Positions 7,898 through 50,240 of a stretch of DNA of 64,000 bases are shown one piece after another (within the stretch, counting starts at the first letter, position 1; every line of letters starts with the position of its first letter). The DNA is from Xenorhabdus miraniensis. Its GTDB lineage: Bacteria > Pseudomonadota > Gammaproteobacteria > Enterobacterales > Enterobacteriaceae. The stretch is from contig NZ_NITZ01000005.1 of the NCBI RefSeq assembly GCF_002632615.1, positions 1-64,000 of the forward strand, read 5' to 3'. The notes below the pieces were generated by a model, which had not been told where the DNA came from, did no database searches, and saw only the letters and a list, made by a program, of their open reading frames with translations. The translations under genes and the position numbers were made by a program.

Positions 7898-8257
7898 TTA
7901 AATCTCCTTACATTCCACGGCAATAAATTCTGCCGAAATCTCCCCCTTGCTGGTCAGCGAGGTATTGCCGTCACACCAGGCATTGGCCAGCATAAATTTT
8001 TCGCCCGTATCACATTCAAATGAAATGGTGGTGTCGATGGCGTTCTTAATGCTAAACAGGCTGACCCCGGGTCCCTGTGGGATAACACAACTCAGGCGGG
8101 CTTCTTTGGGAGTCTGCTGCCAGCCGTAGACGCGGGCCCCAATCACCGGATCACGGCTGAAGCCGCCCGGTGTCAATGTCGCGCCGTCTTTGGTCGGCAG
8201 TTCCTTCCCGTTCAGGTGAATATAGGCAATGCCCGTATACTGGTATGGACTGGTCAT
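7898..8257 (-). CDS. Tail tube protein (Mu gpM)
   Basis: A 119-residue tail tube protein, the same length as Mu M. The segment HLNGKELPTKDGATLTPGG followed by GYGWQQTPKEARLSC-like sequence is characteristic of this family. It follows the sheath gene by 15 bases and precedes the chaperone, as in all Mu-like phages. It polymerises inside the sheath around the tape measure protein. Nothing unusual is seen. Confidence 0.92.
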   Translation of the reverse strand: MTSPYQYTGIAYIHLNGKELPTKDGATLTPGGFSRDPVIGARVYGWQQTPKEARLSCVIPQGPGVSLFSIKNAIDTTISFECDTGEKFMLANAWCDGNTSLTSKGEISAEFIAVECKEI

Positions 8258-8272
8258 CGGTATGTGTCCTTA

Positions 8273-9745
8273 TTACAAAATAAACTGAATGGCATGGGCA
8301 TAGATGCGGAACTGGTTAACCAGGTCAGGGTTGCTGCGTACGTTCAGGCGGTTACGGTCATTCTGATCCCGCTCCACCAGCAACGTTTTCTTGAATGTGT
8401 CAAAATCCTCAACCAGGCCCGCGAATTCATGTTCAGTAAACAGGGCCAGCAGTTCGGTGCGAATGACCGAGGGGGTCACCACGGCCTGCCCGGCACTGAT
8501 ACGGGTACCGTCGTTCGCCAGCTTATGGCGCGGGTATTTCTGGGTAATGCGTACCCGGGTGGCATAACGCAGATAGGACAATGTCGCGATGGTTTCCACA
8601 TCCAGATAACTGGGGTCAGGGTCGCCGAATGCATTCTGGCGGTACATGGTGATCATGCGCTCAATCTGCACGTGACCGCCCGTATCGACGGTAAATGTGG
8701 AAATACCGTCATACAGCAACAGGTTGCGTTCATTCAGCGCCCAACGATCACCCCGGGCAGGGGGCAGAATACCCGGCAGTTGCAGTGTTTGCAGGGGACG
8801 TGCCGGATCAATACTCAGTGACCCCACAGCGACCCCGGCCAGCGTTGCCGCCCAGAGGTACGGTGGTTGAGGGGAAATGCCCGTAGCCAGTGTCGAAAAC
8901 AGATAATCATTGCGGGCCGTGCCAAACGTCGTGAGTTGCGCCAGTGTGCCGCGTTTCGCCATCCAGCACAGGCCATCAATCATTTTCAGCGGCCCCCAAC
9001 GGTGCTTCAGCTCATCACGCAACAGATTCAGGTTGAAGGTATCAGTAAACGGATTGACGATATAATTCCACCAGGTATCGCCGAAGGCCGTGATGGCGGC
9101 GGACAAATCCGGATTCCCCGTCGCGCTCCCCAACGGGGTGATCCCCACATTGATCCCCACAGGCAGCATTTCACCGTCGTAGTAGTTTACCCGGACATCA
9201 ATATCATTCCCGGTGGCCCCTGACCATTTGGCGGTTAACAGCACCGTATCAGACAGGGCATCACTGCTGGCGGTCACTGGCAGCCTGTCATTGGCGTTGA
9301 GGGCATCACGCACTTTTCCTGCCATCGCGGCCGCATCATCGCCGGCCTTGACTGTGACTCGGACTGAAATGCCTGCCACCATCAGGGCAATCTGGCCTGT
9401 CTGGGCGACATTACCCACCAGCTGAATTTTGCCCCTGGCTGTCACCCCGTTGACATCATCGTCAACGGCCAACCCCCACAGGTCGGCAAAGGCGTTACCA
9501 CGAATAAAGGCCGCCGCCATTTCAGCCAGCATGGAGCCACGGCCAAACGCCGCTTCAGCCGCACTGACAGAGGTAATGCGGAACGGTTGTCCGGCAGGCA
9601 CCTGACCGGACGCGGTGCGCAACCCCAACAGCAGGGTTTTATGCAACGTGGGCGGGGTACCGGTGACGGCCGCTGAATTGTCAAACTCGATGTAACACAA
9701 CGGCACACGGATATTGGACGGGATGTCATTAAATGAGATCGCCAT
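8273..9745 (-). CDS. Contractile tail sheath protein (Mu gpL)
   Basis: A 490-residue sheath subunit, close to the 495 residues of Mu L. Sequence features include the N-terminal SFNDIPSNIRVPLCYIEFDNS and the conserved C-terminal domain with YLDVETIATLSYLRYATRVRIT-like sequence (quoted in part) that forms the inter-subunit strands. The ATG overlaps the TAA of the 59-residue gp38-like gene as TAATG. The presence of sheath, spike and baseplate wedges shows that this is a myovirus. Confidence 0.94.
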   Translation of the reverse strand: MAISFNDIPSNIRVPLCYIEFDNSAAVTGTPPTLHKTLLLGLRTASGQVPAGQPFRITSVSAAEAAFGRGSMLAEMAAAFIRGNAFADLWGLAVDDDVNGVTARGKIQLVGNVAQTGQIALMVAGISVRVTVKAGDDAAAMAGKVRDALNANDRLPVTASSDALSDTVLLTAKWSGATGNDIDVRVNYYDGEMLPVGINVGITPLGSATGNPDLSAAITAFGDTWWNYIVNPFTDTFNLNLLRDELKHRWGPLKMIDGLCWMAKRGTLAQLTTFGTARNDYLFSTLATGISPQPPYLWAATLAGVAVGSLSIDPARPLQTLQLPGILPPARGDRWALNERNLLLYDGISTFTVDTGGHVQIERMITMYRQNAFGDPDPSYLDVETIATLSYLRYATRVRITQKYPRHKLANDGTRISAGQAVVTPSVIRTELLALFTEHEFAGLVEDFDTFKKTLLVERDQNDRNRLNVRSNPDLVNQFRIYAHAIQFIL

Positions 9746-37141: not shown

Positions 37142-38977
37142 TCAATATTGGATTTTTTTTGCGATCGATACAGTGAAAATGCCCCAGTTATCAGTTAATT
37201 GGTATTGCTTTTCAAAACCAGCGGCTTCTACCAGTGCATCCATTTCTCCCTGAGTACGCCGACGCATAATCCATGGTTGGTTTTCACGATGGCTGGAAAG
37301 AACACGGGCGATCATTTCAAGTTGTGGATGCCAAGGTTGCCCGGTATATATCTGGTAGCCGTTTTCTGCGATGGCACTGGCAAGGCCACGTAAAGAATCT
37401 TTGATTAGCGCATTGTCGGGGAATAACTCATAAAGGCCGGAAACAATGCCCAATGTTGGCGTTGGGGTAATGGATGCAATGCTGTCAGCATTAAACGCAT
37501 CACCGATAACAAAACGAATTTTATCTGCAAGGTGGCGTTCTTCAATATACTCTTGTCCTTGAATAACATTGAGTTCGCTGTAATCCCTTAATAAAACGGA
37601 ATCAACTTTGCTGAAATCATTGATTGCATCAAGAACGTAACGCCCATGTCCGGCAGCTATATCAACAATATGAACAGGATGGTTTTGTTGATGTAAATAG
37701 CGAATGGCCTGACGGATTAATGTCTCCATATTGATTTTTCGTTGCCGTATGCCACGCCAGCCAACGTTGCCTCTGAGATATTGTTGATCCAGTGTTCTCC
37801 CGAAAATTCCCTGGCCTTGTGGTTGATTGCGATAGACATAATCCAGTGTGGAACCGGAATCAAAACCTGTTTCCAGACCGAGGCGAATGCCTTCCGACGT
37901 TCTGCCCAGGCGTGTATTCATTGCCTTACGCATCAGTTTATAACTGAGGTTCTTGGGGCAGAGAGGTGGTAATGGAAGTGATAATTCCCGAAACTCGTCT
38001 GCGGTATGACTCCAAATATCTTCATGGCTGTAATCATGTTGATAACGCGGGATCGCAAAAATGCGATCAATAAATGTACGTATTTTACTGAAAACCAAAT
38101 GGCGGTCTTTTTCGCCCAGTGTATCGTGGTAGAACCCTTCCATTACATGTTTTTCTTTAATTGGGGTGTTCAACCGCTGGTAAAATTGATGCTGTGGTTT
38201 ATGGTGTACAACATAATCGCTGCCAGAAATAAATAGTTGGGTTGGTAATGTAATGGCGCTGGCATCTTTCACTACACGTTCTGCGGTTTGATAAAGCTCT
38301 AATAGAATATTGACGGCGATTTCGCGGGTAATGAGAGGATCATTGTCATAAGAGGTGATGCGGGCTTCATCGTGGGTCAGGAATTTTGCTTTCACATAAG
38401 AACTGACGAAAAAAACGCCCCGCATTTTTTGCATTAGTTGCAATCCTTGCACCGCAAAGGGGACATACAGCTTGATATCAAACGTAGGTGCAGCGAGGAT
38501 CATTGCCCGAATTTTGGGAGCGTAGTCATGTACCCAAGCAGACACTAACACCGCGCCAACACTTTGACCAATCACCACAATATTTTCCATTTCAATATCG
38601 TACTTTGCGGTAATAAACCTCACGAATTCATCAACATCACGAATCGACGTACCCATCGATGGGCTATAACCTCGTGGCCCTTCTGTTTTTCCGTGTCCAC
38701 GGGCATCCCAGGCGAACATGGGTACATCGGGCAGATTGAGTTCATCAACGACATGCTGGATTCGCCCTGAATGTTCATGACCACGATGGAAAATAATGAT
38801 GGCTTTCCCGGCGTTAGCTGGTTCTTGCTGCGGCCAATAACGGTAAAACAGGGAAGCTGAATCTGATGTGGTGAAATAATGTTCTTCGGCAATACGTTGA
38901 GTTGCTGGTTGTGTATTCGATAAAAGCGTATTCGATAGAAGAGTATTTGATAAAAGTGCCTTCGATAACTGTGTCAT
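37142..38977 (-). CDS. ynbC: Alpha/beta hydrolase-methyltransferase fusion, YnbC-like
   Basis: A 611-residue protein. Residues about 30-325 are an alpha/beta hydrolase of the lysophospholipase type (HRGHEHSGR, WDARGHGKTEGPRGY, nucleophile GQSVG at 137-141); the C-terminal 210 residues are a SAM-dependent methyltransferase with VDIAAGHGRYVLD from 438. E. coli YnbC has the same arrangement (about 585 residues). An N-terminal LLSNT tandem repeat (residues 8-22) is extra and may be variable. Ten bases separate it from ynbA and from ynbD, so one transcript is likely. Function in phospholipid modification is inferred from the operon. Confidence 0.9.
   Translation of the reverse strand: MTQLSKALLSNTLLSNTLLSNTQPATQRIAEEHYFTTSDSASLFYRYWPQQEPANAGKAIIIFHRGHEHSGRIQHVVDELNLPDVPMFAWDARGHGKTEGPRGYSPSMGTSIRDVDEFVRFITAKYDIEMENIVVIGQSVGAVLVSAWVHDYAPKIRAMILAAPTFDIKLYVPFAVQGLQLMQKMRGVFFVSSYVKAKFLTHDEARITSYDNDPLITREIAVNILLELYQTAERVVKDASAITLPTQLFISGSDYVVHHKPQHQFYQRLNTPIKEKHVMEGFYHDTLGEKDRHLVFSKIRTFIDRIFAIPRYQHDYSHEDIWSHTADEFRELSLPLPPLCPKNLSYKLMRKAMNTRLGRTSEGIRLGLETGFDSGSTLDYVYRNQPQGQGIFGRTLDQQYLRGNVGWRGIRQRKINMETLIRQAIRYLHQQNHPVHIVDIAAGHGRYVLDAINDFSKVDSVLLRDYSELNVIQGQEYIEERHLADKIRFVIGDAFNADSIASITPTPTLGIVSGLYELFPDNALIKDSLRGLASAIAENGYQIYTGQPWHPQLEMIARVLSSHRENQPWIMRRRTQGEMDALVEAAGFEKQYQLTDNWGIFTVSIAKKIQY
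38912..38956 (-). repeat. 15-bp tandem repeat inside ynbC
   Basis: Three near-identical 15-bp units encode LLSNT three times (residues 8-22 of YnbC). Copy-number change would keep the frame. The repeat lies between the start codon and the hydrolase domain. Confidence 0.85.
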
Positions 38978-38986
38978 ATTAATTCC

Positions 38987-39610
38987 TTATTTAGATTGTG
39001 ACGTTTCATCCAGCCTGATTTCACGCAAGGCTTTAACAACACGCTGATAGCAAGTCATCAAGAGTAAAATGCCTATAAAAGGAAACAAATAGTGGCTCCA
39101 GCTCAAGGCAGAAGGGAAAATGGCAATAATCAATCCATAAGTACCGAAGACAAAAGCACGGTCGCTTTTTCCCATTGGGCCGTCATAGCGCCGTGATGCG
39201 CCAATAGTTTGAGCCAAAACGCCGATAAATTCCGTCAGGATAGCCAAGAATAAGATAACCAACACACTCGCACTGCTGACATTCGGTAAAAAGCAGAAGG
39301 GGAGATAGAGAGCGACATCGGAAATAACATCCCCAAGTTCATTATAAATAGCGCCTAAATAGGATATCTGGTGGTGCTCTCGTGCCAACATGCCATCAAT
39401 CGCATTGAGGGCCATGCGGATAAAGAGAAAAACAGGCAGTAGCCAATAGAGAGCGAAAGAAGGAAATAGGCTCAATAATGAACCAATAGCGATTGATAAA
39501 AACATCGCTCCCAATGTGACTTGATTAGCGGTAATACCATGTTTATGCAAAGAGATTACGATAGGACGTAAGAGGTTTTGAAAGCGAGGTTTCAGATTAT
39601 AGATAGTCAT
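38987..39610 (-). CDS. ynbA: CDP-alcohol phosphatidyltransferase, YnbA-like
   Basis: A 207-residue membrane enzyme with about five helices. The CDP-alcohol motif appears as NAIDGMLAREHHQISYLGAIYNELGD: compared with the canonical D-x2-DG-x2-AR-x8-G-x3-D-x3-D, the first Asp and the Asp after G-x3 are Asn. E. coli YnbA shows the same kind of substitution, so it is a family trait rather than damage. It heads the operon and would join an alcohol to CDP-diacylglycerol; the alcohol is unknown. The companion CDP-DAG synthase gene ynbB of E. coli is missing here. Confidence 0.9.
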   Translation of the reverse strand: MTIYNLKPRFQNLLRPIVISLHKHGITANQVTLGAMFLSIAIGSLLSLFPSFALYWLLPVFLFIRMALNAIDGMLAREHHQISYLGAIYNELGDVISDVALYLPFCFLPNVSSASVLVILFLAILTEFIGVLAQTIGASRRYDGPMGKSDRAFVFGTYGLIIAIFPSALSWSHYLFPFIGILLLMTCYQRVVKALREIRLDETSQSK

Positions 39611-39784
39611 CTTGCCCTAAGTTCCTTATAGGTCAAATTATCATCATTACTAATAAAATAAAAAATGTAAATCAGATAAAAGAAAAGTTGTTTGATAGAT
39701 CAATAAATTATTTATTGCTGAGAGATGATGATAAACTTTATGAGTTTTAATTAATTAGCCGATTAATGTTAAGGATACAACGCA

Positions 39785-40471
39785 TTGTCCAGAGCACAAC
39801 GTTTGTTATCTCTTATGGAGATGTTGCGTAGTTACCATTTTCCTGTACAGGGAAAAGTACTGGCACAAAAATTAGGCATTAGTTTAAGAACACTCTATCG
39901 GGATATTGCTACCTTACAGGCGCAAGGTGCAATCATCGAAGGTGAGGCTGGTATAGGCTATATTTTACGGCCGGGTTTTGTCCTGCCGCCATTGATGCTG
40001 ACGCAGAATGAAATAGAGGCTTTGGCATTGGGTGCAAGCTGGGTTGCTAAGCGTACAGATTCACAGTTAAAAACATCCGCAACCAGCGCAATCAACAAAA
40101 TTGCAGCAGTTATCCCGGCTGAGTTAAAGCAAATTTTGGAAACCAATTCATTATTAGTGGGGCCTGCTTCCACGAAAATTCAGCTTACCGTTGATATTCA
40201 GCAAGTACGGCAAGCAATCAGTGACAGACGTAAAATCACCTTTGCTTATCGGGATCTGAAAGGGAATCAATCCGAAAGGACGGTATGGCCATTTGCGTTG
40301 GGATATTTTGAAAATATCAGTATTGTCATTGGATGGTGTGAATTACGAAAAACATTTCGTCATTTCAGGTCGGATAGAATTAATCATTTAAAGGTTGAAA
40401 AATGGTGTTATCCCCGTTCAAGACAGTCATTACTTAAAGAATGGCGGGAAACACAAAAAATACCGAATTAG
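39785..40471 (+). CDS. YafY-type HTH/WYL transcriptional regulator
   Basis: A 228-residue regulator with an N-terminal HTH_11 domain (residues 5-55: QRLLSLMEMLRSYHFPV, LGISLRTLYRDIATLQAQGA in part) and a WYL domain at about 130-215 (FAYRDLKGNQSERTVWPFALGYFE, quoted partly). The start is TTG at 39785, with AAGGA ten bases upstream; starting there gives the N-terminus SRAQRLL typical of E. coli YafY. Divergent from the ynbACD operon (174 bp between), so it may regulate that operon. Ligand unknown. Confidence 0.87.
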   Translation: MSRAQRLLSLMEMLRSYHFPVQGKVLAQKLGISLRTLYRDIATLQAQGAIIEGEAGIGYILRPGFVLPPLMLTQNEIEALALGASWVAKRTDSQLKTSATSAINKIAAVIPAELKQILETNSLLVGPASTKIQLTVDIQQVRQAISDRRKITFAYRDLKGNQSERTVWPFALGYFENISIVIGWCELRKTFRHFRSDRINHLKVEKWCYPRSRQSLLKEWRETQKIPN

Positions 40472-40604
40472 TGACGCTATGTCAGTGAAAAAATGATCCC
40501 CATTGTGAGACATTACGAGTAGACAATAGCGGGTAGCCTATACTTTGCATCATGCGGGCTAGGAAAAAATTTAGACAAAATCACACCAGCGTATAAACTT
40601 AATG

Positions 40605-41510
40605 CTAGCATATTGGCGAATTGGGTATATAGGTAGTTAAAGTCGGTATAGTGAGTAATGTTTTCCATACACGCTGTTTAAAAACAATACCTTTAATCTC
40701 CAGTGGTAGATTAAATTGAGAGTGTGTTTTTTCAACAATATTAATGACCTCTGTAACCATATTCTCAAAATTTAAATCGTTACCAATAAATTTGGCATTA
40801 GAAAATTTATCTTGAAGATTGTTAAGAAGTTTGGTTGGGTTATCACCAAATGAGATAGCGCAAATCCCTTTCAATGAACGTGCGACTAGAATATTGCCTA
40901 ATGAACATTTAACAATAGCAAACTGAATTAAGACATCTTTACCACCTTTCCGATAGACACTTGGTGTCATACCTAATGAATCATCAGCTATAGCATAAAA
41001 CCTGCTACAAGAATTAAAACCGGAGTCATATATGGCATTTGTTATATTTTTATTTTCTTTAGTTAACTCACAATACATATTATCAATGCGAATGGCTGTG
41101 CTATATTGTTTAGGGGTTATGCCAATGATATTCTTAAAAATACGATGAAAAAAACAAGCACTTATTTTTACCTGTATTGATATTTCATTAAGTTTTATAT
41201 CTCCTTTTCTATCTTCTATAATCTTGCATGCTTTTATTACTAAACGTGAATTTTTTTCTGAAGTTGACTCGCCATTAGGATTACATCGTTTACATGCGCG
41301 ATAATTTTTATTTTCAGCAAGTTTGTAATTATCAAAAATCTCAATGTGATTAAGTTTAGGAGTTCTCGATGGACATGATGGGCGGCAATAAACTTTTGTC
41401 ATTATGTTGGCGTAAACGAAGAGATTATCAGCTTTGATATTTTTAGTTTTTATATCTAACCAACGGGGATCTGACTCAGTGAATAGAGTGCTGTTTTTGT
41501 TCAAGGACAT
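40605..41510 (-). CDS. Ada-like alkylation sensor with truncated methyltransferase domain
   Basis: A 301-residue homologue of Ada (E. coli 354). The N-domain zinc cysteines are present at C42, C46, C73 and C76, which correspond to Cys38, 42, 69 and 72 of Ada, and the AraC-type DNA-binding domain (about 85-185) is complete. The C-terminal O6-methylguanine methyltransferase domain stops shortly after KGIVFKQRVWKTLLTIP, so the PCHR active site (Cys321 of Ada) is absent. A +1/-1 frame change near 40620 would restore a few Ada-like residues (YTQFANML), suggesting frameshift plus deletion. The start at 41510 has AAGGAA upstream. It could act as a methyl-phosphotriester sensor and activator (AdaA type). 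It is divergent from the nitroso-type operon, 469 bp apart. Confidence 0.85.
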   Translation of the reverse strand: MSLNKNSTLFTESDPRWLDIKTKNIKADNLFVYANIMTKVYCRPSCPSRTPKLNHIEIFDNYKLAENKNYRACKRCNPNGESTSEKNSRLVIKACKIIEDRKGDIKLNEISIQVKISACFFHRIFKNIIGITPKQYSTAIRIDNMYCELTKENKNITNAIYDSGFNSCSRFYAIADDSLGMTPSVYRKGGKDVLIQFAIVKCSLGNILVARSLKGICAISFGDNPTKLLNNLQDKFSNAKFIGNDLNFENMVTEVINIVEKTHSQFNLPLEIKGIVFKQRVWKTLLTIPTLTTYIPNSPIC

Positions 41511-41979
41511 AATTAATTTCCTTAATGCTATAATAGAATACATTAGGGGCATCTATTGTTTATTAATCGATAAAGGTCACCTGGTGTAATAACAGTTAAT
41601 GTGCCAATGAAAATAATTATATAAACCGCTTGGTATTTTTAATCACTGATACAGTGATATTAGAAGTAATGTTAATTATCACTATTTCAGATGGAAATTT
41701 TTACAGGTGTTATGTTTTTCTTAACTATGCAGAATAAGCATAAAAAATAAGGCACAAGATTTTTAACTGACTATTTATCAACATGATTACTGTCATCTTT
41801 AATCTAAATCACCTGTTTTTTAACATCTTAAAGGTAAATACTATAGGCATTCTTCCTATTTCTTACTGTCAAATTCGATAATTTAAATTTTTTAAGAATT
41901 GAAAAGCAAAAAATGGGGTGTTTTCGGCGTTTTTTGGATGTAAAACAAAATTGTTATATTTATTTAGGGGAGATAACAA
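41511..41979. promoter_or_regulatory. Divergent control region between ada-like gene and the N-nitroso operon
   Basis: A 469-bp AT-rich gene-free stretch that must hold promoters for both directions. A TATATT (41955-41960) lies 20 bases before the hydrolase start, with TTGGAT 15 bases before it, a weak promoter at best. GGGGAG forms the ribosome binding site. I see no clear Ada box, but one may be degenerate. Confidence 0.5.
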
Positions 41980-42933
41980 ATGAGAGCTAAATTGACACAA
42001 TCTATGAAAGACTATGAATATGCTTGCTCAAATGCAATGTCACCAGATTTTTACCGCAAAGATATTGATTATGTTAGATATTCTTATAACGCATTGTTTT
42101 CACAGTTTCCTCCAACACCAAGAGATGGAGCTGTTTATGAAGATTTGCAATGCAAAAGTTCAGTAACCGGCAAAGCAATTGATGTCCGGATTTATTCACC
42201 CAATGAACAGGTTGAATCAAAGCGAACTTTACCCTGTATTATATATGCTCACGGTGGTGGCTTTGTAAGCGGCGATTTGAGCGTTGTTGATACTATGGGG
42301 AGGGATTTAGTTCTTGATCTAAATATAAGCGTTGTTACTTTTAATTACCGACTTGCTCCAGAACATCCACATCCTGCCGCTCTTGAAGATTGCTGTGATG
42401 TTTATCTTTTTATACGTAAGATTGCAAAACAAAAAGATATTAATATTGACCAAATTTATTTTGCAGGTGAGAGTTGTGGTGGGAGTTGGTCAATAGCATT
42501 ACCACTTTGGTTACGGGATAACAACTTACCACAGTTGGCCGGTTCTATTGCTATCAATCCTGTATTGGATGTTCATCGATGGGCTCAAAAGGCCGTTAGC
42601 GATGTATCTAAAGAATTTTGTGATGAAATGTATTTCTTTACAAAATCATACCTTGGTCAGAATGAAAATAAACTTGTTCCATACGCATCTCCGTTACTTG
42701 CTGACAACCTTTCAGGGTTACCTCCTGCTGTATTTTGGGCTGCTGCGATTGACCCATTGTCTGATGATGTGAAAAAAATGTCAGCTCGTATGAAGCAGAA
42801 TGGAATTAAAGTTTATGTCAATATTGAAGATGAAGCTATACATGGTTGTTTACGAGCAAGATATCATTATCTATTTGCAAAAAAAGGATATGACAATTTA
42901 TTGTCATTAATAATGAAGTTAATTGATTCTTAG
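41980..42933 (+). CDS. HSL-family alpha/beta hydrolase, first gene of the N-nitroso operon
   Basis: A 317-residue carboxylesterase of the hormone-sensitive lipase (group IV) family. It has the oxyanion motif HGGG at 91-94, the nucleophile elbow GESCG at 163-167 (Ser165), Asp258 in AAIDPLSDD and His288 in EAIHGCL as catalytic triad. No signal peptide. It has GGGGAG before the ATG and is followed after 62 bases by the methyltransferase gene. In the pathway it could hydrolyse an ester or amide of the nitroso product or serve as resistance/tailoring enzyme; its substrate is unknown. AT-rich codon use matches the next three genes. Confidence 0.88.
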   Translation: MRAKLTQSMKDYEYACSNAMSPDFYRKDIDYVRYSYNALFSQFPPTPRDGAVYEDLQCKSSVTGKAIDVRIYSPNEQVESKRTLPCIIYAHGGGFVSGDLSVVDTMGRDLVLDLNISVVTFNYRLAPEHPHPAALEDCCDVYLFIRKIAKQKDINIDQIYFAGESCGGSWSIALPLWLRDNNLPQLAGSIAINPVLDVHRWAQKAVSDVSKEFCDEMYFFTKSYLGQNENKLVPYASPLLADNLSGLPPAVFWAAAIDPLSDDVKKMSARMKQNGIKVYVNIEDEAIHGCLRARYHYLFAKKGYDNLLSLIMKLIDS

Positions 42934-42995
42934 ATGGAAAATTAATATTTAATATACTCACAAGAATAAATTGGCTAATATATAAGGGGGATGTC

Positions 42996-43862
42996 ATGCT
43001 TAACAATAGCGTGAGGTCATTTGACAGTTGGCATTTCTCTATGTTAAATGATAAAGCGAGAACATTAGCGTTAGAAAGTGCTATTAAGGAGCTTGACTTA
43101 AAAGGTAAAAGTATTTTTGAAATTGGTACAGGTGCTGGTTTAATATCAATGATGTTTGCAAAATATGGAGCCAAAAGGGTATTGACTTGTGAAACGAACA
43201 GGCAATTATCTAAACAAGCAGCTTTAATATTTAAACTAAATAACTTAGATAAACGTATTACTTTATTAAATAAATCCAGTTTCCAAGTGATAGAGGATGG
43301 TGATCTGGATTTTACTCCTGATATTATTTTTACTGAAACTATTGATTGTGGTGTTATAGGTGAGGGTTTTTATTCTATTGCAGAGGATATAAAAAAAATA
43401 GCACAGCCAAAAACTATAATTATGCCTTGTAAAATAGAGCAATATGGTTACCTTGTAGACAGTAAAGAAATATATAATCTAAATAATGTTGCTATTGTTA
43501 ATGGCTTGGATTTATCTCCACTAAATCGCTATAGCACAAAAAGTTTCTTTCCTGTCAGAGCGTGTCTTTATGAAAGCCGACTTCTGACTTCTATTACTAA
43601 TATAAAAAATTATGATTATTTAAAAGAGGTTTCAAAAACTGAAAATCCGATATTTTCAATAAAGGAAGAAGGTACTTGTTATGGAATGTTATCTTTCTTT
43701 ATTGCCAGGTTTGGTTCATTCAATGTTTCAAATAAAGTAGGTTTGCAAAGCCATTGGCATCAGGCATTCCATCCGTTACATACGCCAAAAAAAGTGCTAA
43801 AAGATAAAAAATATCGTGGATCTCTGGAATGTAATGGCAAGTTCACACTTGAGGAGTTTTAA
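42996..43862 (+). CDS. PRMT-like arginine N-methyltransferase (SznE-like)
   Basis: A 288-residue class I SAM methyltransferase. Motif I is FEIGTGAG at 41-48 and the acidic ribose contact is in TCETN (65-68). It also has the protein-arginine-methyltransferase hallmarks: a double-Glu loop E114-x8-E123 (ETIDCGVIGE) and a THW-like loop SHW at 252-254. The SznE enzyme of streptozotocin biosynthesis is a PRMT-like protein that methylates free L-arginine to N-omega-methyl-L-arginine, the substrate of SznF. The next gene encodes a SznF-like protein, so the same role is inferred. TAAGGGGG precedes the ATG. Confidence 0.88.
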   Translation: MLNNSVRSFDSWHFSMLNDKARTLALESAIKELDLKGKSIFEIGTGAGLISMMFAKYGAKRVLTCETNRQLSKQAALIFKLNNLDKRITLLNKSSFQVIEDGDLDFTPDIIFTETIDCGVIGEGFYSIAEDIKKIAQPKTIIMPCKIEQYGYLVDSKEIYNLNNVAIVNGLDLSPLNRYSTKSFFPVRACLYESRLLTSITNIKNYDYLKEVSKTENPIFSIKEEGTCYGMLSFFIARFGSFNVSNKVGLQSHWHQAFHPLHTPKKVLKDKKYRGSLECNGKFTLEEF

Positions 43863-43863
43863 A

Positions 43864-45291
43864 ATGAATAAGAAATCTATACGTGACTATCGGAAAATCG
43901 AAAATTTTGATGATATGAATATTGGCAGAGATGCGGTTCTTGCTTTTTCTGATTCAGAGCAATGTATTGATAATGAAAATATTTACGAAGAAAAGTTTTA
44001 TGGCCGCAGGATCAGGCCACATGTTCTTAAGTATATTGATTTTTCAAATCCTTTAACCAGAGATATTGCTTTAACCTATGGTGCATTCGCTGCAAACAGA
44101 ACACTTTTTACCATGAATGAAATGGATTTTTTAATGCTTCCTGAACAGGATGAGTTTGTATGGAATGACTATCAGAAATTCTATTCGGATGAGAGATTTA
44201 TTACCTCTAATATAGGGATTCGATTTTTGGAAAAATATCTTTTCTCTTTTCTTGATGATGAAATAAGCATTACTGGAAATTGGAATAAAGAAAAAGTCAA
44301 AGAGTATTTTTTTTATTTCGCAAATGAATCACTGAAATGCACCTCTCTTCCATCAGAGAATGCGATTTTAACATCGTTAGATCCTGTTACAACTGCAAAA
44401 GATTGGCTGATTCAGCTATCTTTGGATTTCTTGATTGAATCAAGCCCTATGGCCAGATATGCTAGTGGAAGCTATGGAGAAATTGGCAGTTCTTTATTTA
44501 AGATTATTATTGATGAGCTTGGATATGGCGATTTTTCTAAAAAACATTCAAAGCTATATCAAGATACGCTTAATTCAGTTAATTTAAATCCTACACCTCA
44601 CTATTACTGGCAATATTATCTTAATGGCAGCTTACTATTAGCAAACTATTATAATATGGTTACCAAAGATAAGCGGAAGTTTTTTCGTTATATCGGTGCG
44701 ATTTACCAAGCAGAGACATCTTTTATTACAAGTTGTAAAATTTGGAGAAATGTACTCAAAGAAACATTGCCAAATATTAATGTAAAATACTTCAATGAGC
44801 ATTGTCATATAGATATAGATCATTCAAGAATGGTATTTGAAGGATTGGTTTCACCTTCTATAGATAAATATGGGCAAATTGCAGCAACAGAAATAATCAG
44901 AGGCTTTGAGGAATCACGTTTAATCGGTGAGATCAGCGAACAAGACTTTATACACCAGATAAAATGGAAGGATAATTGTGAGAAAAATAAAAATATACAT
45001 AATAAAATCATAACAAAAGTAAAAGAAGCCGCGAGTAAAAACATTATCCCTTGTGTTAAGCTCACGGAGCCATTCAATGAATTGTCAATAACTCACTCCC
45101 ATGATCAAAATGAGCTATGTCATGTTAAATCAGGGACTATGGAGTTTTTGAACGGTTTTGGGAAATCCACAATTTTAAAATCTGGAGAAGGGATTGTTAT
45201 AGAAAATAATCGATTGCATGGTGCATTAATTAATTCAGCGTCTTGCGATTATGAAATTTATACAATAGGAGATTTAGATAAATGGGAGTAA
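43864..45291 (+). CDS. N-nitrosourea-forming diiron oxygenase with C-terminal cupin (SznF-like)
   Basis: A 475-residue protein, SznF being 471. Residues 180-330 form a haem-oxygenase-like diiron domain with E192, E218, H228, E284, H313, D317 and H320 (H-x3-D-x2-H as HCHIDIDH). As I recall, SznF uses E189, E215, H225, E281, H311, D315 and H318, so the spacing agrees within one residue. The cupin domain has H411, H413 and H452, matching H407, H409 and H448 of SznF. SznF hydroxylates N-methylarginine twice and its cupin rearranges the product to an N-nitrosourea. ATG at 43864 starts two bases after the methyltransferase stop. Confidence 0.9.
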   Translation: MNKKSIRDYRKIENFDDMNIGRDAVLAFSDSEQCIDNENIYEEKFYGRRIRPHVLKYIDFSNPLTRDIALTYGAFAANRTLFTMNEMDFLMLPEQDEFVWNDYQKFYSDERFITSNIGIRFLEKYLFSFLDDEISITGNWNKEKVKEYFFYFANESLKCTSLPSENAILTSLDPVTTAKDWLIQLSLDFLIESSPMARYASGSYGEIGSSLFKIIIDELGYGDFSKKHSKLYQDTLNSVNLNPTPHYYWQYYLNGSLLLANYYNMVTKDKRKFFRYIGAIYQAETSFITSCKIWRNVLKETLPNINVKYFNEHCHIDIDHSRMVFEGLVSPSIDKYGQIAATEIIRGFEESRLIGEISEQDFIHQIKWKDNCEKNKNIHNKIITKVKEAASKNIIPCVKLTEPFNELSITHSHDQNELCHVKSGTMEFLNGFGKSTILKSGEGIVIENNRLHGALINSASCDYEIYTIGDLDKWE

Positions 45292-45596
45292 AACAAATCA
45301 ACTATAGCGGGGCATTGCTTATTAATTTCCCTGCGGAAAATGAGAGGGTTGTAGTTTATGTTGAGAATAATAAAATTATTGCCCTTAATGATAAATGCCC
45401 CCATAGAGGAGGCCCTATACATCTTTGCAAAAAGCACGCGGACGGAACATTAGAGTGTCTCTGGCATGGGAATATAATAAAAAAACCTGCAATGTCAAAA
45501 AACATATCAGCAATTTATTATCGATCTACTGGAAAAGTTATTCTTGTATCTGTGACTAAAATGGATAGAGAATGGCCGGTGAAAACGATATCCTAG
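45282..45596 (+). CDS. Small Rieske [2Fe-2S] protein
   Basis: A 104-residue Rieske ferredoxin with C39-P-H41-RGG and C59-L-W-H62-GN, the CxH...CxxH cluster ligands. It overlaps the SznF-like gene by ten bases, so the two are translated together. The most direct idea is electron supply to the diiron or cupin site of the SznF-like enzyme, or to a reductase partner elsewhere. No reductase gene is in the operon. No terminator is seen after it. Confidence 0.87.
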   Translation: MGVKQINYSGALLINFPAENERVVVYVENNKIIALNDKCPHRGGPIHLCKKHADGTLECLWHGNIIKKPAMSKNISAIYYRSTGKVILVSVTKMDREWPVKTIS

Positions 45597-46093
45597 CCGT
45601 AAAATTAGTTTCGAAAAATAGATATGCTGAGATATTATTGCATGATCAAAAAAGAATTTTTTTGTTATATATTAACCAGTGTTACAATAAAAAATCATTG
45701 ATGTATTAATTTTTATGGAAGATTTTTGGGCACTGGTTACTCGTTTTGAAAATTATGACAATATTTTTTATTAAATAAAGTTATAAAAAATTATCTTTAT
45801 CATTTATTATCATTGCACATTAAATAGTATAGGAATAACATTATCTTCACCTCTCAATTATCCCACCTTTTATTTTAAGTAGCCATGAAAATTATAAGAG
45901 CTAATATGATTTTCTGAGAATTCTGGCAAGTGTAAAACACGTTTATTACTGTATAATTGATGATTATCCAATAGATATTTTCTCTGATATTTAAATATAG
46001 AAAACACTACTGACAAAAACTGTCACACCAGATTGCTACTCTGTGAACTCTACAACATGTTTTGAGTCAGCTATCTAACTATTGGAGTTTTTC
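45597..46093. other. Gene-free AT-rich stretch after the N-nitroso operon
   Basis: About 500 bp without a supported gene. It should contain the promoter of the SRPBCC-VOC gene. No hairpin terminator, repeat or transfer RNA was found. Confidence 0.5.
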
Positions 46094-46918
46094 ATGTTAA
46101 CCCTAACTTTTTCTATATCGATAAACGCAAAACCATCTCAGATTTGGGCTCATTATGTTGATTTTGATTTGCGGAAAAAATGGGAGACTGATCTCGAATA
46201 TCTTAAATTCGAAGGTGAAGTGAAAACTGGGCAATATGGCAGAATGGTATTAGGTGGTATGCCTGAGATACGCTTCTATCTTGCAAAGGTAGAAGTGAAT
46301 AAAGAGTTCACCGATCAGGTTAAACTGCCACAGGTGGGAATATTAACTTTCTGTCACCAAATTTTGACCGATGAAAATAGCATGGCAAAGCGCATTCAGG
46401 TAACTGTGACTTTTGAGCCTGAGATGAATATGCTAAATGCTCAGGCTGAGGGCTTCTTCAAACAAGTGACACAAAATCTGGTTGATACGATATCAAGGCT
46501 TAAGGCGATCGTTGAACAAAATGAAGTTGAAACAAATGAAATGGTAGATTCCATCCTTGTTAACCCTAATCTTCAACTGATTTATGTTTCTGATATCGGG
46601 CGTTCTACGGTTTTTTATAAAACTATTTTCAATGCTGAACCAATCTTTGCCAGCCCACGTTATGTCGCATTTTCTGCGGGTAAGGCAGCAGTCTTTGCGA
46701 TTTGGAGCGGAGGTGCAAAGCCTGATAGCGCTATTCCGAGATTTTCTGAGATTGGTATTATGTTGTCCTCCAACGAGGACGTCAATCGACTCTTTGAAAG
46801 ATGGCAAAAGAACTCAAACATTGAGATTAAACAAGAACCTTATAATGATGTGTTTGGACGCACTTTCCTCGTGAAAGATCCTGATGGTCATATTATTCGA
46901 GTGTGTCCTTTGGATTAA
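46094..46918 (+). CDS. SRPBCC (START-like) and VOC (glyoxalase-like) fusion protein
   Basis: A 274-residue protein with two small-molecule-binding domains. Residues 1-140 look like an SRPBCC/polyketide-cyclase fold (SISINAKPSQIWAHYVDFDLRKKWE, partly quoted) and residues 155-274 like a VOC domain (LIYVSDIGRSTVFYKTIFNAEPIF, ending DPDGHIIRVCP). The ATG at 46094 is chosen because TTGGAG upstream is its ribosome binding site; a TTG four codons earlier is part of that site. The VOC half resembles lactoylglutathione lyase/antibiotic-binding proteins. Function could be resistance or an aromatic-ring tailoring step. I do not know of this exact fusion as a named family. Confidence 0.78.
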   Translation: MLTLTFSISINAKPSQIWAHYVDFDLRKKWETDLEYLKFEGEVKTGQYGRMVLGGMPEIRFYLAKVEVNKEFTDQVKLPQVGILTFCHQILTDENSMAKRIQVTVTFEPEMNMLNAQAEGFFKQVTQNLVDTISRLKAIVEQNEVETNEMVDSILVNPNLQLIYVSDIGRSTVFYKTIFNAEPIFASPRYVAFSAGKAAVFAIWSGGAKPDSAIPRFSEIGIMLSSNEDVNRLFERWQKNSNIEIKQEPYNDVFGRTFLVKDPDGHIIRVCPLD

Positions 46919-46939
46919 GAGCCTATCCCATTAGGCTCT
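46918..46939 (+). terminator. Hairpin between the SRPBCC-VOC and hydrolase genes
   Basis: AGAGCCTA and TAGGCTCT form a perfect 8-bp stem with a six-base loop, starting at the stop codon. No T-run follows, so it may reduce or process rather than end transcription into the hydrolase gene. Confidence 0.4.
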
Positions 46940-46960
46940 AAGGTAAATGAAGGAGATATT

Positions 46961-47734
46961 ATGTTAGGTTTTAATCATCAAAATGGCAGTTACTTAGAAA
47001 TTGATGGCGCTCATATTTATTACGAGCGGCAAGGCAATCCAAATGGATATCCACTAATTTTTTTGCATGGTGGTTTAAGTGATATTGAGACATTTAACCG
47101 AATTGTGGACGATCTTGGAAACAGTTACCAACTTATTGGGATAGATAGCAGGGGGCAGGGTAAATCGACATTAGGGCAAGGAAATTTATCGTATAAACAG
47201 CTTCAACAAGATGTAGAAGCTGTTGTCAGATATTTAACGTTAGGAAAATGCAGCATTATTGGTCACAGTGACGGAGGTATTGTGGCGTTACGACTGGCTG
47301 CGGCGGGAAGTATCCCAATTGATAAAATAGTAATTATAGGCGCTCATTGGACATTAAAAGAAGAGGATCCGACGAGAGAGATATTTACCTTGGTGACGGC
47401 AGATAGTTGGCGAGCAATGTTACCTGATAGCTATGAAAGTTATCATAGGCTGAACCCAAAAGCCGATTTCAACAAATTGTTCAGCAGCATTGTCCCTATG
47501 TGGCTTGATAATAGTGAGAGCGGTTACCCTAATGAAACTATCAGCAGAATAACGTGTAAGTTGCTGGTGGTTCGGGGAGATCATGATAGCTTGGTTTCTC
47601 GCAGCAATTCGGCGGAATTAGCCGATAAAGTCACTCATTCTTGTTTTTTAAATATTCCTTTTACGAGACATTCGCCCCATGAAGAAAAACCAGAGTTGTT
47701 GATACCGTTTTTGAAAGAATTTTTATCAAATTAG
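46961..47734 (+). CDS. Alpha/beta hydrolase
   Basis: A 257-residue soluble alpha/beta hydrolase. HGG at the oxyanion region (FLHGGLSD), the GIDSRGQGKS element, and the nucleophile IGHSDGG (Ser near 98) are clear; the Asp (RGDHDSLV) and His (TRHSPHEEKP) of the triad are at the C-terminus. GGAGAT precedes the ATG. Similar enzymes act on esters, epoxides or halogenated compounds, so the substrate cannot be told. It is probably co-transcribed with the SRPBCC-VOC gene 42 bp upstream. Confidence 0.82.
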   Translation: MLGFNHQNGSYLEIDGAHIYYERQGNPNGYPLIFLHGGLSDIETFNRIVDDLGNSYQLIGIDSRGQGKSTLGQGNLSYKQLQQDVEAVVRYLTLGKCSIIGHSDGGIVALRLAAAGSIPIDKIVIIGAHWTLKEEDPTREIFTLVTADSWRAMLPDSYESYHRLNPKADFNKLFSSIVPMWLDNSESGYPNETISRITCKLLVVRGDHDSLVSRSNSAELADKVTHSCFLNIPFTRHSPHEEKPELLIPFLKEFLSN

Positions 47735-48038
47735 ATTCTGGCTGCTAAATGAATCACGCCTGAGATATACACGATTGCATTTTTTGCTAAAAACGTAATT
47801 GTATCTCAGGCCTGTAGTTTTTTAGACTATTATTCTGCCCGATTAAATTTTCTAACCATTGCCGATAGCATTCTTTTCCGGATAAACCCACTGGTTGGTC
47901 TTATTGCAAACCAATATAAAGTGAATCCAAGTATTAAACCTGATTTTTATAACCATTATTGGTGAATAAGTGTGAGTAATGGTCTATTTTATTTAAATCA
48001 TTAATGATTTTATCAGCAATATGATAAAGGGAGGTGAT
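47735..48038. other. Gap of 304 bp with an inverted repeat
   Basis: CCTGAGATA (47759-47767) and TATCTCAGG (47802-47810) are perfect arms with a 34-base loop and are followed by TTTTTT, so a terminator of the hydrolase transcript is likely. The remainder shows no gene. Confidence 0.45.
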
Positions 48039-48554
48039 ATGTCGATTCTGACCATTTTGAAAGATACGCCACTCTGGGTTTGGATTTTATTTGCTTTTTT
48101 AATTAAACGAGGTATCAATGCGTTATATGACAGGAAAATGCGGATTGAACGTCTGTTCTTTTTACCAATATTGTTTTTTATATGGGGTGGTTATAATGTA
48201 TTGAATGAAACAGTATTTACAAATATTGCATTATTAATGTTCATATTGGGGATATTAGCGGGGGGAGTTGCAGGATGGATGTTATGGAAAAACCAACCTA
48301 GATTAAGAAAAGGAAGTGACAGTGGATTCATTATTCGATCAGGAACGCCTTTGACTTTAATCCTCATTCTTGTGGTTTTTATAGTAAAATTCATTATTTC
48401 TGCCATGTCAGGTGTTAATCCTGTATTGTTACATTATTTCAATTTTAATCTGATGTTTGGTTTTGTGAGTGGTTTGTCCGATGGCGTTTTTTGGGGCGGG
48501 GCACTGAATTTATTTATCCATTATTACAGAAACAAGCCTAAAAATATGCTGTGA
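48039..48554 (+). CDS. Membrane protein of the DUF6622 type
   Basis: A 171-residue inner-membrane protein with four to five hydrophobic segments. The start MSILTILKDTPLWVWILFA is like the family annotated as DUF6622/YcxB-like small membrane proteins with two TPLWVW repeats. AAGGGAGGTGAT directly before the ATG at 48039 is a near-perfect ribosome binding site, which decides the start. Function unknown. It stands alone, followed by the tRNA genes on the other strand. Confidence 0.75.
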   Translation: MSILTILKDTPLWVWILFAFLIKRGINALYDRKMRIERLFFLPILFFIWGGYNVLNETVFTNIALLMFILGILAGGVAGWMLWKNQPRLRKGSDSGFIIRSGTPLTLILILVVFIVKFIISAMSGVNPVLLHYFNFNLMFGFVSGLSDGVFWGGALNLFIHYYRNKPKNML

Positions 48555-48645
48555 GATAATCTTATGTTCTCTTTTAATCAGATTGGATATATGCAGATTT
48601 TTATTGTTGAGAGGTATATAAATTGAGAGAGACATATAAATGTAA

Positions 48646-48671
48646 AAAGCCCGAACTGATGTTCGGGCTTT
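48646..48671. terminator. Bidirectional rho-independent terminator
   Basis: AAAGCCCGAAC-TGAT-GTTCGGGCTTT is a perfect 11-bp stem with A-run before and T-run after. It ends the tRNA-Ser transcript on the minus strand and probably the membrane protein transcript on the plus strand. Confidence 0.85.
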
Positions 48672-48682
48672 CACACATAAAA

Positions 48683-48772
48683 TGGCGGTGAGGGAGGGAT
48701 TCGAACCCTCGATACGTTTTCACGTATACACACTTTCCAGGCGTGCTCCTTCAGCCTCTCGGACACCTCACC
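48683..48772 (-). tRNA. tRNA-Ser (GGA anticodon), copy 1
   Basis: A 90-base tRNA-Ser. The minus strand begins GGTGAGGTGTCCGAG, has CTGGAAA in the anticodon loop (GGA) and a long variable arm with AACGTAT, and ends in CACCGCCA with encoded CCA. It is identical to copy 2. Confidence 0.95.
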
Positions 48773-48852
48773 AAATTTTGTTTTTGCAGTATTCTATAAA
48801 GAACACCTTTCGCTACATGCCCGATCATTTTTGATTGGGAAGGCACTAAAAA

Positions 48853-48875
48853 AGCCTGAGCGTTTTGTTCAGGCT
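48853..48875 (-). terminator. Hairpin between the two tRNA-Ser genes
   Basis: On the minus strand AGCCTGA...TCAGGCT is followed by TTTTTT; it lies after copy 2. It could end part of the transcripts before copy 1. Confidence 0.6.
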
Positions 48876-48888
48876 CTTTCAAAGAATA

Positions 48889-48978
48889 TGGCGGTGAGGG
48901 AGGGATTCGAACCCTCGATACGTTTTCACGTATACACACTTTCCAGGCGTGCTCCTTCAGCCTCTCGGACACCTCACC
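48889..48978 (-). tRNA. tRNA-Ser (GGA anticodon), copy 2
   Basis: A second 90-base tRNA-Ser with the same sequence as copy 1, 116 bases upstream in transcription. The same acceptor, anticodon GGA and CCA end are seen. Confidence 0.95.
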
Positions 48979-49031
48979 ATATTTTGTTATTGCAGTTAAC
49001 TCGTTTAAGTTCATCGCTGCAACGGGGCGCT

Positions 49032-49060
49032 ACTATAGGGAAAAGCAGAGCAGGCGTCAA
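49032..49060 (-). promoter_or_regulatory. Sigma-70 promoter of the tRNA-Ser genes
   Basis: On the minus strand TTGACG, a 17-base spacer and TATAGT, followed by a GC-rich discriminator (AGCGCCCCG) typical of stringently controlled stable-RNA promoters. It lies 54 bases before copy 2. Confidence 0.85.
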
Positions 49061-49292
49061 CAGGGTTGTGATGATTTTTTTCCGGCTTTTTGATTGATTA
49101 GACAAATAAAAAACAATTTGCATGTCTGGCAACCAATTATGAAAGTGAATGCACTTTTTCTGCAACGAACCATGGCAAATATGTTAAGTAGATAACATTA
49201 TTAATATTTTCATTCCCGTCTTCTCACCGGAAGCTTGCAACCTTACGGCAATAGGTTAACCCTATTAGAAAAACAAAAAGGAATGAGATTTT

Positions 49293-50240
49293 ATGAACAT
49301 CATTTTTTATCACCCTTCCTTTAATTTTAACGCTGATAAATGGATTCAGGGAATACAAACCAGATTACCTGAGGCTAAAGTCCGGCAGTGGGTTCATGGT
49401 GATGATGCTCCCGCTGATTATGCGCTAGTCTGGTTACCCCCCTATGAAATGTTAGCAAGTCGTCAGAATATAAAAGGTATATTTGCACTTGGCGCAGGCG
49501 TGGATGCTGTCCTTAAACAAGAATTGGAAAATCCGGGCACGCTGCCTGCGGGGGTTCCGCTAATACGCCTTGAAGATACAGGAATGGCACGGCAGATGCA
49601 GGAATATGCCGTTAATGCCGTTTTATACTATTTTCGCCGCATGGACGAATATAAACAATTTCAGGAGCAGCGCATCTGGAAGCCAGTGGCTCCCCATAAC
49701 CGGAAAAAGTTTGTTATCGGTGTCTTAGGCGCAGGGGTTTTAGGGCGGAGTGTTATTGAAAAATTGCGGGAATTTGATTTCAACGTTCGTTGCTGGAGCC
49801 GTACTCCAAAACAAATCGACAATGTTGAAAGCTTTTACGGAGAAGAGCAACTAAGTGATTTTCTTTCTGAATGCAAGGTGTTGATTAATATCCTGCCAAA
49901 TACGCCGGAAACTCATGGTATCCTCAATTTTTCATTATTTAGTCAGTTAAAATCTGGTGCATATGTGATTAATATAGCACGAGGTGATCAGCTCGTTGAA
50001 CAGGATTTATTGACTGCTATTGATGAAGGCTATGTCGCTGGTGCAACGCTTGACGTATTTGTTAAGGAGCCATTATCAAATCTTCATCCTTTCTGGACTC
50101 ATCCACGCATTAATATCACTCCGCATATTGCGGCGATTACCATTCCTGATGAGGCGATGGATGTTATTTGTGAAAATATTCGACGAATCGAAAATGGGGA
50201 GTTACCCACAGGTCTCGTCGATATAGCTCGTGGCTACTAG
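49293..50240 (+). CDS. ghrA: Glyoxylate/hydroxypyruvate reductase A
   Basis: A 315-residue D-2-hydroxyacid dehydrogenase, similar along its length to E. coli GhrA (YcdW, 312 residues). It has the NAD(P)-binding GVLGAGVLGRSV loop near residue 145, the catalytic Arg in NIARGDQLVEQ, Glu in FVKEPLS and His in ITPHIAA. It reduces glyoxylate and hydroxypyruvate with NADPH. AAGGAATGAG lies before the ATG. In E. coli it is followed by ycdX and ycdY; here ycdX is missing and ycdY follows after 94 bases. Confidence 0.95.
   Translation: MNIIFYHPSFNFNADKWIQGIQTRLPEAKVRQWVHGDDAPADYALVWLPPYEMLASRQNIKGIFALGAGVDAVLKQELENPGTLPAGVPLIRLEDTGMARQMQEYAVNAVLYYFRRMDEYKQFQEQRIWKPVAPHNRKKFVIGVLGAGVLGRSVIEKLREFDFNVRCWSRTPKQIDNVESFYGEEQLSDFLSECKVLINILPNTPETHGILNFSLFSQLKSGAYVINIARGDQLVEQDLLTAIDEGYVAGATLDVFVKEPLSNLHPFWTHPRINITPHIAAITIPDEAMDVICENIRRIENGELPTGLVDIARGY

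Follow-up and report, generated by a model that had tools for sequence, protein, structure and literature searches.

The closest described counterpart of the genes reported here is the SznE/SznF (StzE/StzF) pair of the streptozotocin pathway in Streptomyces achromogenes. According to the accessible text of PMC11705231, SznF is the only enzyme identified as building the N-nitrosourea group, and its product also breaks down to nitric oxide (NO) non-enzymatically. Two streptozotocin clusters carry two O6-methylguanine-DNA methyltransferase genes and a 2-oxoglutarate-oxygenase-like gene (PMC12224297, excerpts). Genome mining counted 426 SznF homologues and placed SznF and 135 others in szn-type clusters; the available main text of that work does not mention Xenorhabdus (PMC10849742). 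The second relevant system is the adaptive response of Escherichia coli, in which Ada acts by positive feedback (PMC8643705, excerpts) on an operator with AAT as its A box and GCAA as its B box (PMC4437013, excerpts). Here we describe an island of five genes in Xenorhabdus miraniensis, located in a window of 64,000 nucleotides (positions 1 to 64,000 of contig NZ_NITZ01000005.1), which encodes SznE- and SznF-like proteins next to an Ada-type protein. An earlier note on this DNA had proposed an operon that makes a nitrosourea-type amino acid or a derivative of it. Inspection of the open reading frames (ORFs) and a domain search confirmed its gene order, with four plus-strand ORFs filling 41980..45596: a hydrolase, a protein arginine methyltransferase (PRMT)-like protein, a diiron protein fused to a cupin, and a Rieske protein. 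The extent had to be corrected, since the inserted unit reaches from about 40491 to 46001 and includes a divergent ada gene.

The Xenorhabdus locus shares with the streptozotocin system the ten metal ligands of SznF, Tyr459, the three-domain fold, a PRMT-like gene directly ahead of the SznF-like gene and an alkylation-repair gene nearby. It differs in the sequence of SznF (40.6% identity), in an extra hydrolase, in the lack of sugar-attaching genes and in the presence of an Ada-type regulator with operator-like sites. None of the five island genes is sugar-attaching, and therefore we do not file the locus as a streptozotocin cluster. With the szn-type clusters of the genome-mining study (PMC10849742, available text) it has in common a SznF-type gene outside a non-ribosomal peptide synthetase (NRPS) or polyketide synthase (PKS) context. 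The likeness to the E. coli adaptive response lies in the full set of sensor cysteines, an AraC-type DNA-binding part and an AAT-N6-GCAA site upstream; unlike in E. coli, the site faces a biosynthetic operon, and the protein has no C-terminal O6-methylguanine domain.

The SznF-like protein matched three distinct SznF sequences in the Protein Data Bank (PDB) at E-values of 4.1e-103 to 4.8e-103, with 182 identities over 448 aligned residues. Most sequence queries began at 43861 and carried one extra residue; residue numbers are given for the start at 43864. In the alignment the seven diiron ligands of SznF (E189, E215, H225, E281, H311, D315 and H318) corresponded to identical residues of the Xenorhabdus protein (E192, E218, H228, E284, H313, D317 and H320), as did the cupin ligands H407, H409 and H448 (H411, H413 and H452) and Y459 (Y463). 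The earlier note, which had staked its reading on the superposition of these ligands, had given exactly these ten positions, and all ten were aligned and identical. E189 is listed there as an additional ligand. This is consistent with the 3H/4C ligand set described in the accessible part of PMC13108848; mutation showed the ligands from E215 to H318 and H407, H409 and H448 to be essential, and Y459 was proposed from computation (PMC11705231). Across an alignment of 56 rows the ligand positions and the tyrosine were invariant, save H413, which was conserved in at least 90% of rows. An AlphaFold2 model of the protein (mean predicted local distance difference test score, pLDDT, 93.3) matched the N-terminal, haem-oxygenase-like diiron oxidase (HDO) and cupin domains of the SznF structure 6VZY with template modelling (TM) scores of 0.90/0.93 and a root-mean-square deviation of 2.0 Å, so the structural comparison that the earlier note had suggested came out as an SznF fold; the N-oxygenase HrmI ranked next after the SznF entries in the fold search. 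A protein database search found 96 SznF relatives, the closest from Xenorhabdus sp. PB62.4 (97%), followed by X. bovienii (83–86%), of which full-length copies are present in the database (P0002), and X. mauleonii (59%). No relatives were found in phage records or IMG/VR.

The methyltransferase gave PRMT7 as its first match in a sequence search (4c4a, E 5.2e-20), and its model (pLDDT 93.9) had Trypanosoma PRMT7 as the best PDB fold (4m38, E 1.2e-24, TM 0.84/0.73). PRMT7 is reported to yield only monomethylarginine. The glutamates of the double-Glu loop, E114 and E123, together with H253 and W254, were invariant across 39 alignment rows, in agreement with the motifs first noticed in the sequence. 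The name SznE is thus based on predicted fold, residues and linkage. The linkage was seen when SznF relatives were paired with SznE relatives by an exactly equal size of the longest contig: 21 of 59 SznF relatives found such a partner, and shifting the sizes by 1–3 bases left 0 coincidences on average (the test took in 59 of the 96 SznF relatives and 120 of the 126 SznE relatives). An X. khoisanae protein (93%) was among the SznE matches listed. On sequence, catalytic residues, predicted folds and linkage, we consider it highly likely that the two proteins are SznE- and SznF-type enzymes, as the earlier note had held, and the island very probably specifies a nitrosourea-type product from L-arginine.

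The four genes of the operon are closely packed, the sznF-like gene starting 1 bp past the methyltransferase stop and the Rieske gene overlapping the sznF-like stop by 10 bp. A Rieske gene adjoins sznF in 10/10 loci looked at, including that of X. bovienii (L001); in two of the loci (L029 and L030) it was seen as a short match only. The CxH and CxxH motifs were kept in 8/8 aligned rows. We infer that the Rieske protein is the electron donor to the SznF-like enzyme. Directly upstream of sznE on a Methylobacterium indicum plasmid lies a gene (L003:6897-8732) whose 611-aa product combines MOSC, FAD/NAD-binding and plant-type 2Fe-2S domains and may, judging from these, serve the Rieske protein as its reductase.

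Nine loci were compared, all but the window by tblastn over 8–10 kb on each side of sznF: the window, L003, L004, L014 and L026 against L005 (the cyanobacterium Gloeothece), L006 (Azospirillum), L029 and L030. X. bovienii was excluded, its sznE-like gene not having been found, and the context comparison also leaves out L015 (G115) and the plasmid matches H5–H8 (Tistrella and three Rhizobium). SznF matches weaker than 1e-30 were excluded (6/7 genomes in the class sample, 369 searched, and 7/9 in the family sample, 246 searched); the phylum sample of 398 genomes gave three matches at 1e-30, G001 again among them. All nine loci carry SznF-like and Rieske genes. SznE and Ada occur together near sznF in 5/5 loci of the first group and neither occurs in the second (0/4). 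The contrast would make sense if the methyl group added by SznE ends up in a product that methylates DNA, so that Ada is needed. L005, L006, L029 and L030, several of which carry an ATP-grasp gene, possibly make unmethylated N-oxidised arginine products. On the SznF tree the copy of the window does not group as sister to the X. mauleonii-like one, and L029 and L030 are near-copies of each other.

The related loci differ in gene content. In the X. mauleonii-like genome G020 (L014; its SznF row appears identical to P0031) the order is hydrolase, major facilitator superfamily (MFS) transporter, Oxygenase-NA (PF09859; 5832-6593), full-length Ada, a second Oxygenase-NA (8084-8824) and a stand-alone Ada metal-binding protein (8814-9089), followed by convergent Rieske-SznF-SznE genes. 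The Pantoea dispersa plasmid L004 and genome G484 (L026) share the order ada-sznF-Rieske-sznE-MFS-ATP-grasp. On the M. indicum plasmid, Oxygenase-NA, ada and alkA lie about 8 kb or less from sznE-sznF-Rieske-ATP-grasp-hydrolase-M20. Relatives of the hydrolase were found by tblastn inside the L014 (44%) and L003 (30%) clusters. The ATP-grasp protein of the relatives scores with the dapdiamide synthase DdaF, below the cut-off, which suggests peptide-linked products in those loci; the Xenorhabdus island has no ATP-grasp gene. In X. bovienii T228 the start of ada is 280 bp away from one contig end, and that of the sznF-like gene is 28 bp away from another; neither the hydrolase gene nor a sznE-like gene turned up in this genome, and an assembly gap and a real loss are both possible.

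The Ada protein of the window, which has an AraC-type helix-turn-helix, contains PF02805 (the metal-binding domain), PF12833, PF00165 and PF02870 and lacks PF01035, the O6-methylguanine active-site domain. It aligns to residues 2–283 of the 354 of E. coli Ada with 35% identity and keeps 4/4 zinc/sensor cysteines. A PCHR active site was not found in any of three separate frames around and past the ada stop. Since the sensor half is kept and both PF01035 and PCHR are absent, we regard the protein as an Ada-type regulator and not as a complete Ada; because the sensor/activator half is the part retained and the O6-methylguanine-repair end the part absent, its sequence looks like that of a switch rather than a shield in this strain. 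The Ada of strain XENO-7 is similarly short (293 aa), and that of X. bovienii T228 is full-length (357 aa, L048). In E. coli the substitution C321A raises ada expression without stress (PMC8643705), and so, by analogy, an Ada without its C terminus could be biased towards standing ready as an activator at all times. In the Ada proteins of L014 (7026-8108), L004 (8658-9731) and L026 (7451-8533) the pattern is reversed: of the four zinc cysteines they retain none, none and one, respectively, and the PCHR repair end is kept.

The intergenic region between ada and the hydrolase gene contains AATTGAAAAGCAA, 70 bp ahead of the hydrolase start codon, which agrees with the AAT-N6-GCAA pattern. Taken alone, this short pattern gave 12 matches over the window, compared with 21.4 expected, and none before the cluster genes of L014; matches in 3/11 promoter regions had shuffle chances of 0.00–0.14 each, which is weak. 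The idea of an operator was first dropped on this pattern, and it was revived because a comparison of promoters across loci gave a longer shared motif. The identical 13-mer occurs 67 bp before ada (ada-sznF) of the Pantoea plasmid L004, was absent from all 20000 dinucleotide shuffles of the sequence upstream of that gene, and has just two copies in 485 kb of fetched DNA, overlapping loci included. In X. bovienii, AATTTGAAAGCAA stands before ada, and an extended pattern, approximately AATTKRAAAGCAARAAANNGGGTR, is common to all three sites. When a leave-one-out motif was trained on L004 and L048 only and scanned over the 64-kb window, the two best matches were the intergenic sites at 41897-41920 (27.7 bits) and 41852-41875 (19.9 bits), and the third (17.2 bits) lay elsewhere. 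Among 1500 shuffles of the intergenic region no score was as high as 27.7, and a single one came to 19.8. Applied to the 154 bp ahead of the E. coli K-12 ada gene, the motif gave AATTAAAGCGCAAGATTGTTGGTT as its best site, with a score of 6.9 compared with −3.0 for the next; the motif therefore finds the E. coli ada operator. A sigma-70 scan showed no excess (32 found, 32.3 expected). From these sequence comparisons, control of the operon by Ada appears fairly probable.

The five genes lie at a variable site of the genus (Table 1). In the relative G004 the two flanks directly adjoin each other (window position 40490 corresponds to L050 8464 and 46002 to L050 8462), which defines the insertion, and the insertion comprises exactly the divergent ada and the hydrolase, sznE-like, sznF-like and Rieske genes. 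In three further genomes (G019, G011 and G001) the same flanks enclose 2 to 4.5 kb of different DNA, so the site is empty in one genome and occupied by other DNA in several. GC content is 0.32–0.35 over 40–47 kb compared with 0.41–0.46 at 33–39 and 50–64 kb. The sznF-like gene was found in 2/30 Xenorhabdus genomes and the flanking regulator gene in 29/30. Junction repeats of at least 8 bases were not found at the island ends. In line with the earlier note, ORF inspection and domain search turned up neither glycosylation nor assembly-line genes within the island. Just outside it, two tRNA-Ser (gga) genes stand in tandem on the minus strand (48683-48978), and an Rfam scan of 38000–50000 gave two tRNAs and nothing else. 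The product of the flanking gene at 46082-46918 combines a polyketide-cyclase-type domain with a glyoxalase/VOC domain.

Table 1. Genes and candidate regulatory sites of the inserted island (window positions)
Feature	Position	Strand	Evidence
Inserted island, ~5.5 kb, five genes	~40491..46001		Flanks contiguous in relative G004; low GC
ada, C-terminally truncated, 301 aa (longer start at 41552 possible)	40605..41510	-	Domain search; E. coli Ada alignment
Weaker Ada-operator-like site facing ada	41852..41875	-	Second-best motif match in the 64-kb window, 19.9 bits
Ada-operator-like site facing the operon, core AATTGAAAAGCAA at 41897-41909	41897..41920	+	Best motif match in the window, 27.7 bits
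Alpha/beta hydrolase, hormone-sensitive-lipase type (Abhydrolase_3), 317 aa	41980..42933	+	PF07859, E 4e-46
SznE-like PRMT-fold arginine methyltransferase, 288 aa	42996..43862	+	PRMT7 match, E 5e-20; model pLDDT 93.9
SznF-like diiron N-oxygenase + cupin, 475 aa	43864..45291	+	PDB SznF match, ligands, fold
Rieske 2Fe-2S protein, 104 aa	45282..45596	+	PF00355

The model that we favour, and hold as a whole to be somewhat probable, is that a horizontally acquired island of five genes makes an N-methyl-N-nitrosourea-type amino acid under an Ada-type alkylation sensor. The SznE-like enzyme, to judge by its fold and residues, would monomethylate the guanidine of free L-arginine. The SznF-like diiron site, its active sites being intact, would then hydroxylate two guanidine nitrogens, and the cupin would rearrange the hydroxylated product to the N-nitrosourea, the Rieske protein supplying the electrons. 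The hydrolase might trim, tailor or activate the product, a speculative step. The product would methylate DNA, the sensor cysteine of Ada would accept the methyl group, and Ada would act at 41897-41920 and raise expression of the operon. That the DNA-methylating product is its own inducer, in a self-amplifying circuit through an Ada cut to its sensor-activator half, is a more tentative proposal.

The strongest competing explanation leaves the two enzymes as assigned and takes Ada to be a passenger, once serving self-protection, now a pseudogene and without control of the operon. The absent O6-methylguanine end, the presence of such repair genes in streptozotocin clusters (PMC12224297) and the three relatives without an operator-like site would fit it. 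Against it, the intergenic region has two operator-like sites, and in two strains with a similarly short end the remainder of ada stays open and is 85% conserved. The cluster genes are under purifying selection (dN/dS 0.10 for SznF against an X. bovienii copy, 0.15 for Rieske, 0.14 for the hydrolase and, again against X. bovienii, 0.21 for Ada, where the value is that of the kept part and also spans time preceding the truncation). We regard a passenger Ada as unlikely. Smaller still is the chance that another guanidine is N-oxidised, or that the reaction halts at the dihydroxy stage, giving an N-hydroxyguanidine or NO-releasing metabolite and not a stable methyl-nitrosourea: the substrate is not readable from the sequence and the SznF product decays to NO without an enzyme (PMC11705231), but the cupin ligands and Tyr459 are all present and a sznE-like gene stands directly upstream. 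A diazeniumdiolate (graminine-type) pathway, in which the SznF relatives GrbD and ChmM work, was rejected on ligands and gene content and is very improbable, as the NRPS/PKS-linked SznF group with ChmM, all but one, is described as lacking many diiron ligands (PMC10849742, available text), whereas the Xenorhabdus protein has all seven, and the island genes examined include a PRMT-like partner and no NRPS, PKS or haem N-oxygenase gene.

Several observations weigh against the favoured model of a sensor-controlled nitrosourea island. The contrast in SznE and Ada content corresponds to one well-supported branch (100/99) of the SznF tree; it is a single split and therefore counts as one event, to which no P value can be attached. 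Ada relatives occur in 6/30 Xenorhabdus genomes, 4 of them among the 28 without sznF, and so Ada is not specific to the cluster; the truncated ada could itself be a decaying gene. No operator-like site was found in L014, L026 or L003, and the Ada zinc cysteines are lost in L014, L004 and L026, though L004 has an operator-like site. No exporter, ligase or sugar gene was found within the island. Signs of decay are also present: one in-frame stop interrupts the sznF-like gene of X. bovienii T228 (L001:28-1443), a tyrosine replaces the cupin ligand H413 in the X. bovienii protein P0003, and in G021, a genome without sznF, a lone hydrolase (84%) stands amid transposase genes (L049:9258-10223). A decaying cluster is a possible, sober alternative on these last three observations.

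The interpretation of the operon in the earlier note therefore stands as an inference; it was incomplete in missing ada, the operator and the limits of the island, and it overstated the novelty, SznF-type clusters having already been reported as common (PMC10849742). The literature matches listed contained no account of a Xenorhabdus cluster, a Rieske partner or control by Ada; subscription papers were mostly uncovered, and SznF together with Xenorhabdus was searched only within one broader combined query. The abstract of a Nature 2019 paper is said to call SznF-type clusters widespread. The type of pathway is already known, and the Xenorhabdus cluster is a variant of it, real and worth testing.

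N-nitrosoureas are DNA-methylating toxins and drugs. The insect association raised in the earlier note fits Xenorhabdus, a symbiont and insect pathogen, in which such a compact cluster offers a tractable setting for the natural role of nitrosoureas. The constant position of the Rieske gene next to sznF suggests, in a form that can be tested, where SznF-type diiron sites may obtain their electrons in the cell. The Ada-type sensor and its candidate operator would couple the synthesis of a methylating agent to the cellular response to methylation, and if the self-amplifying circuit is true, cells exposed to the product of a neighbour would begin producing it too.

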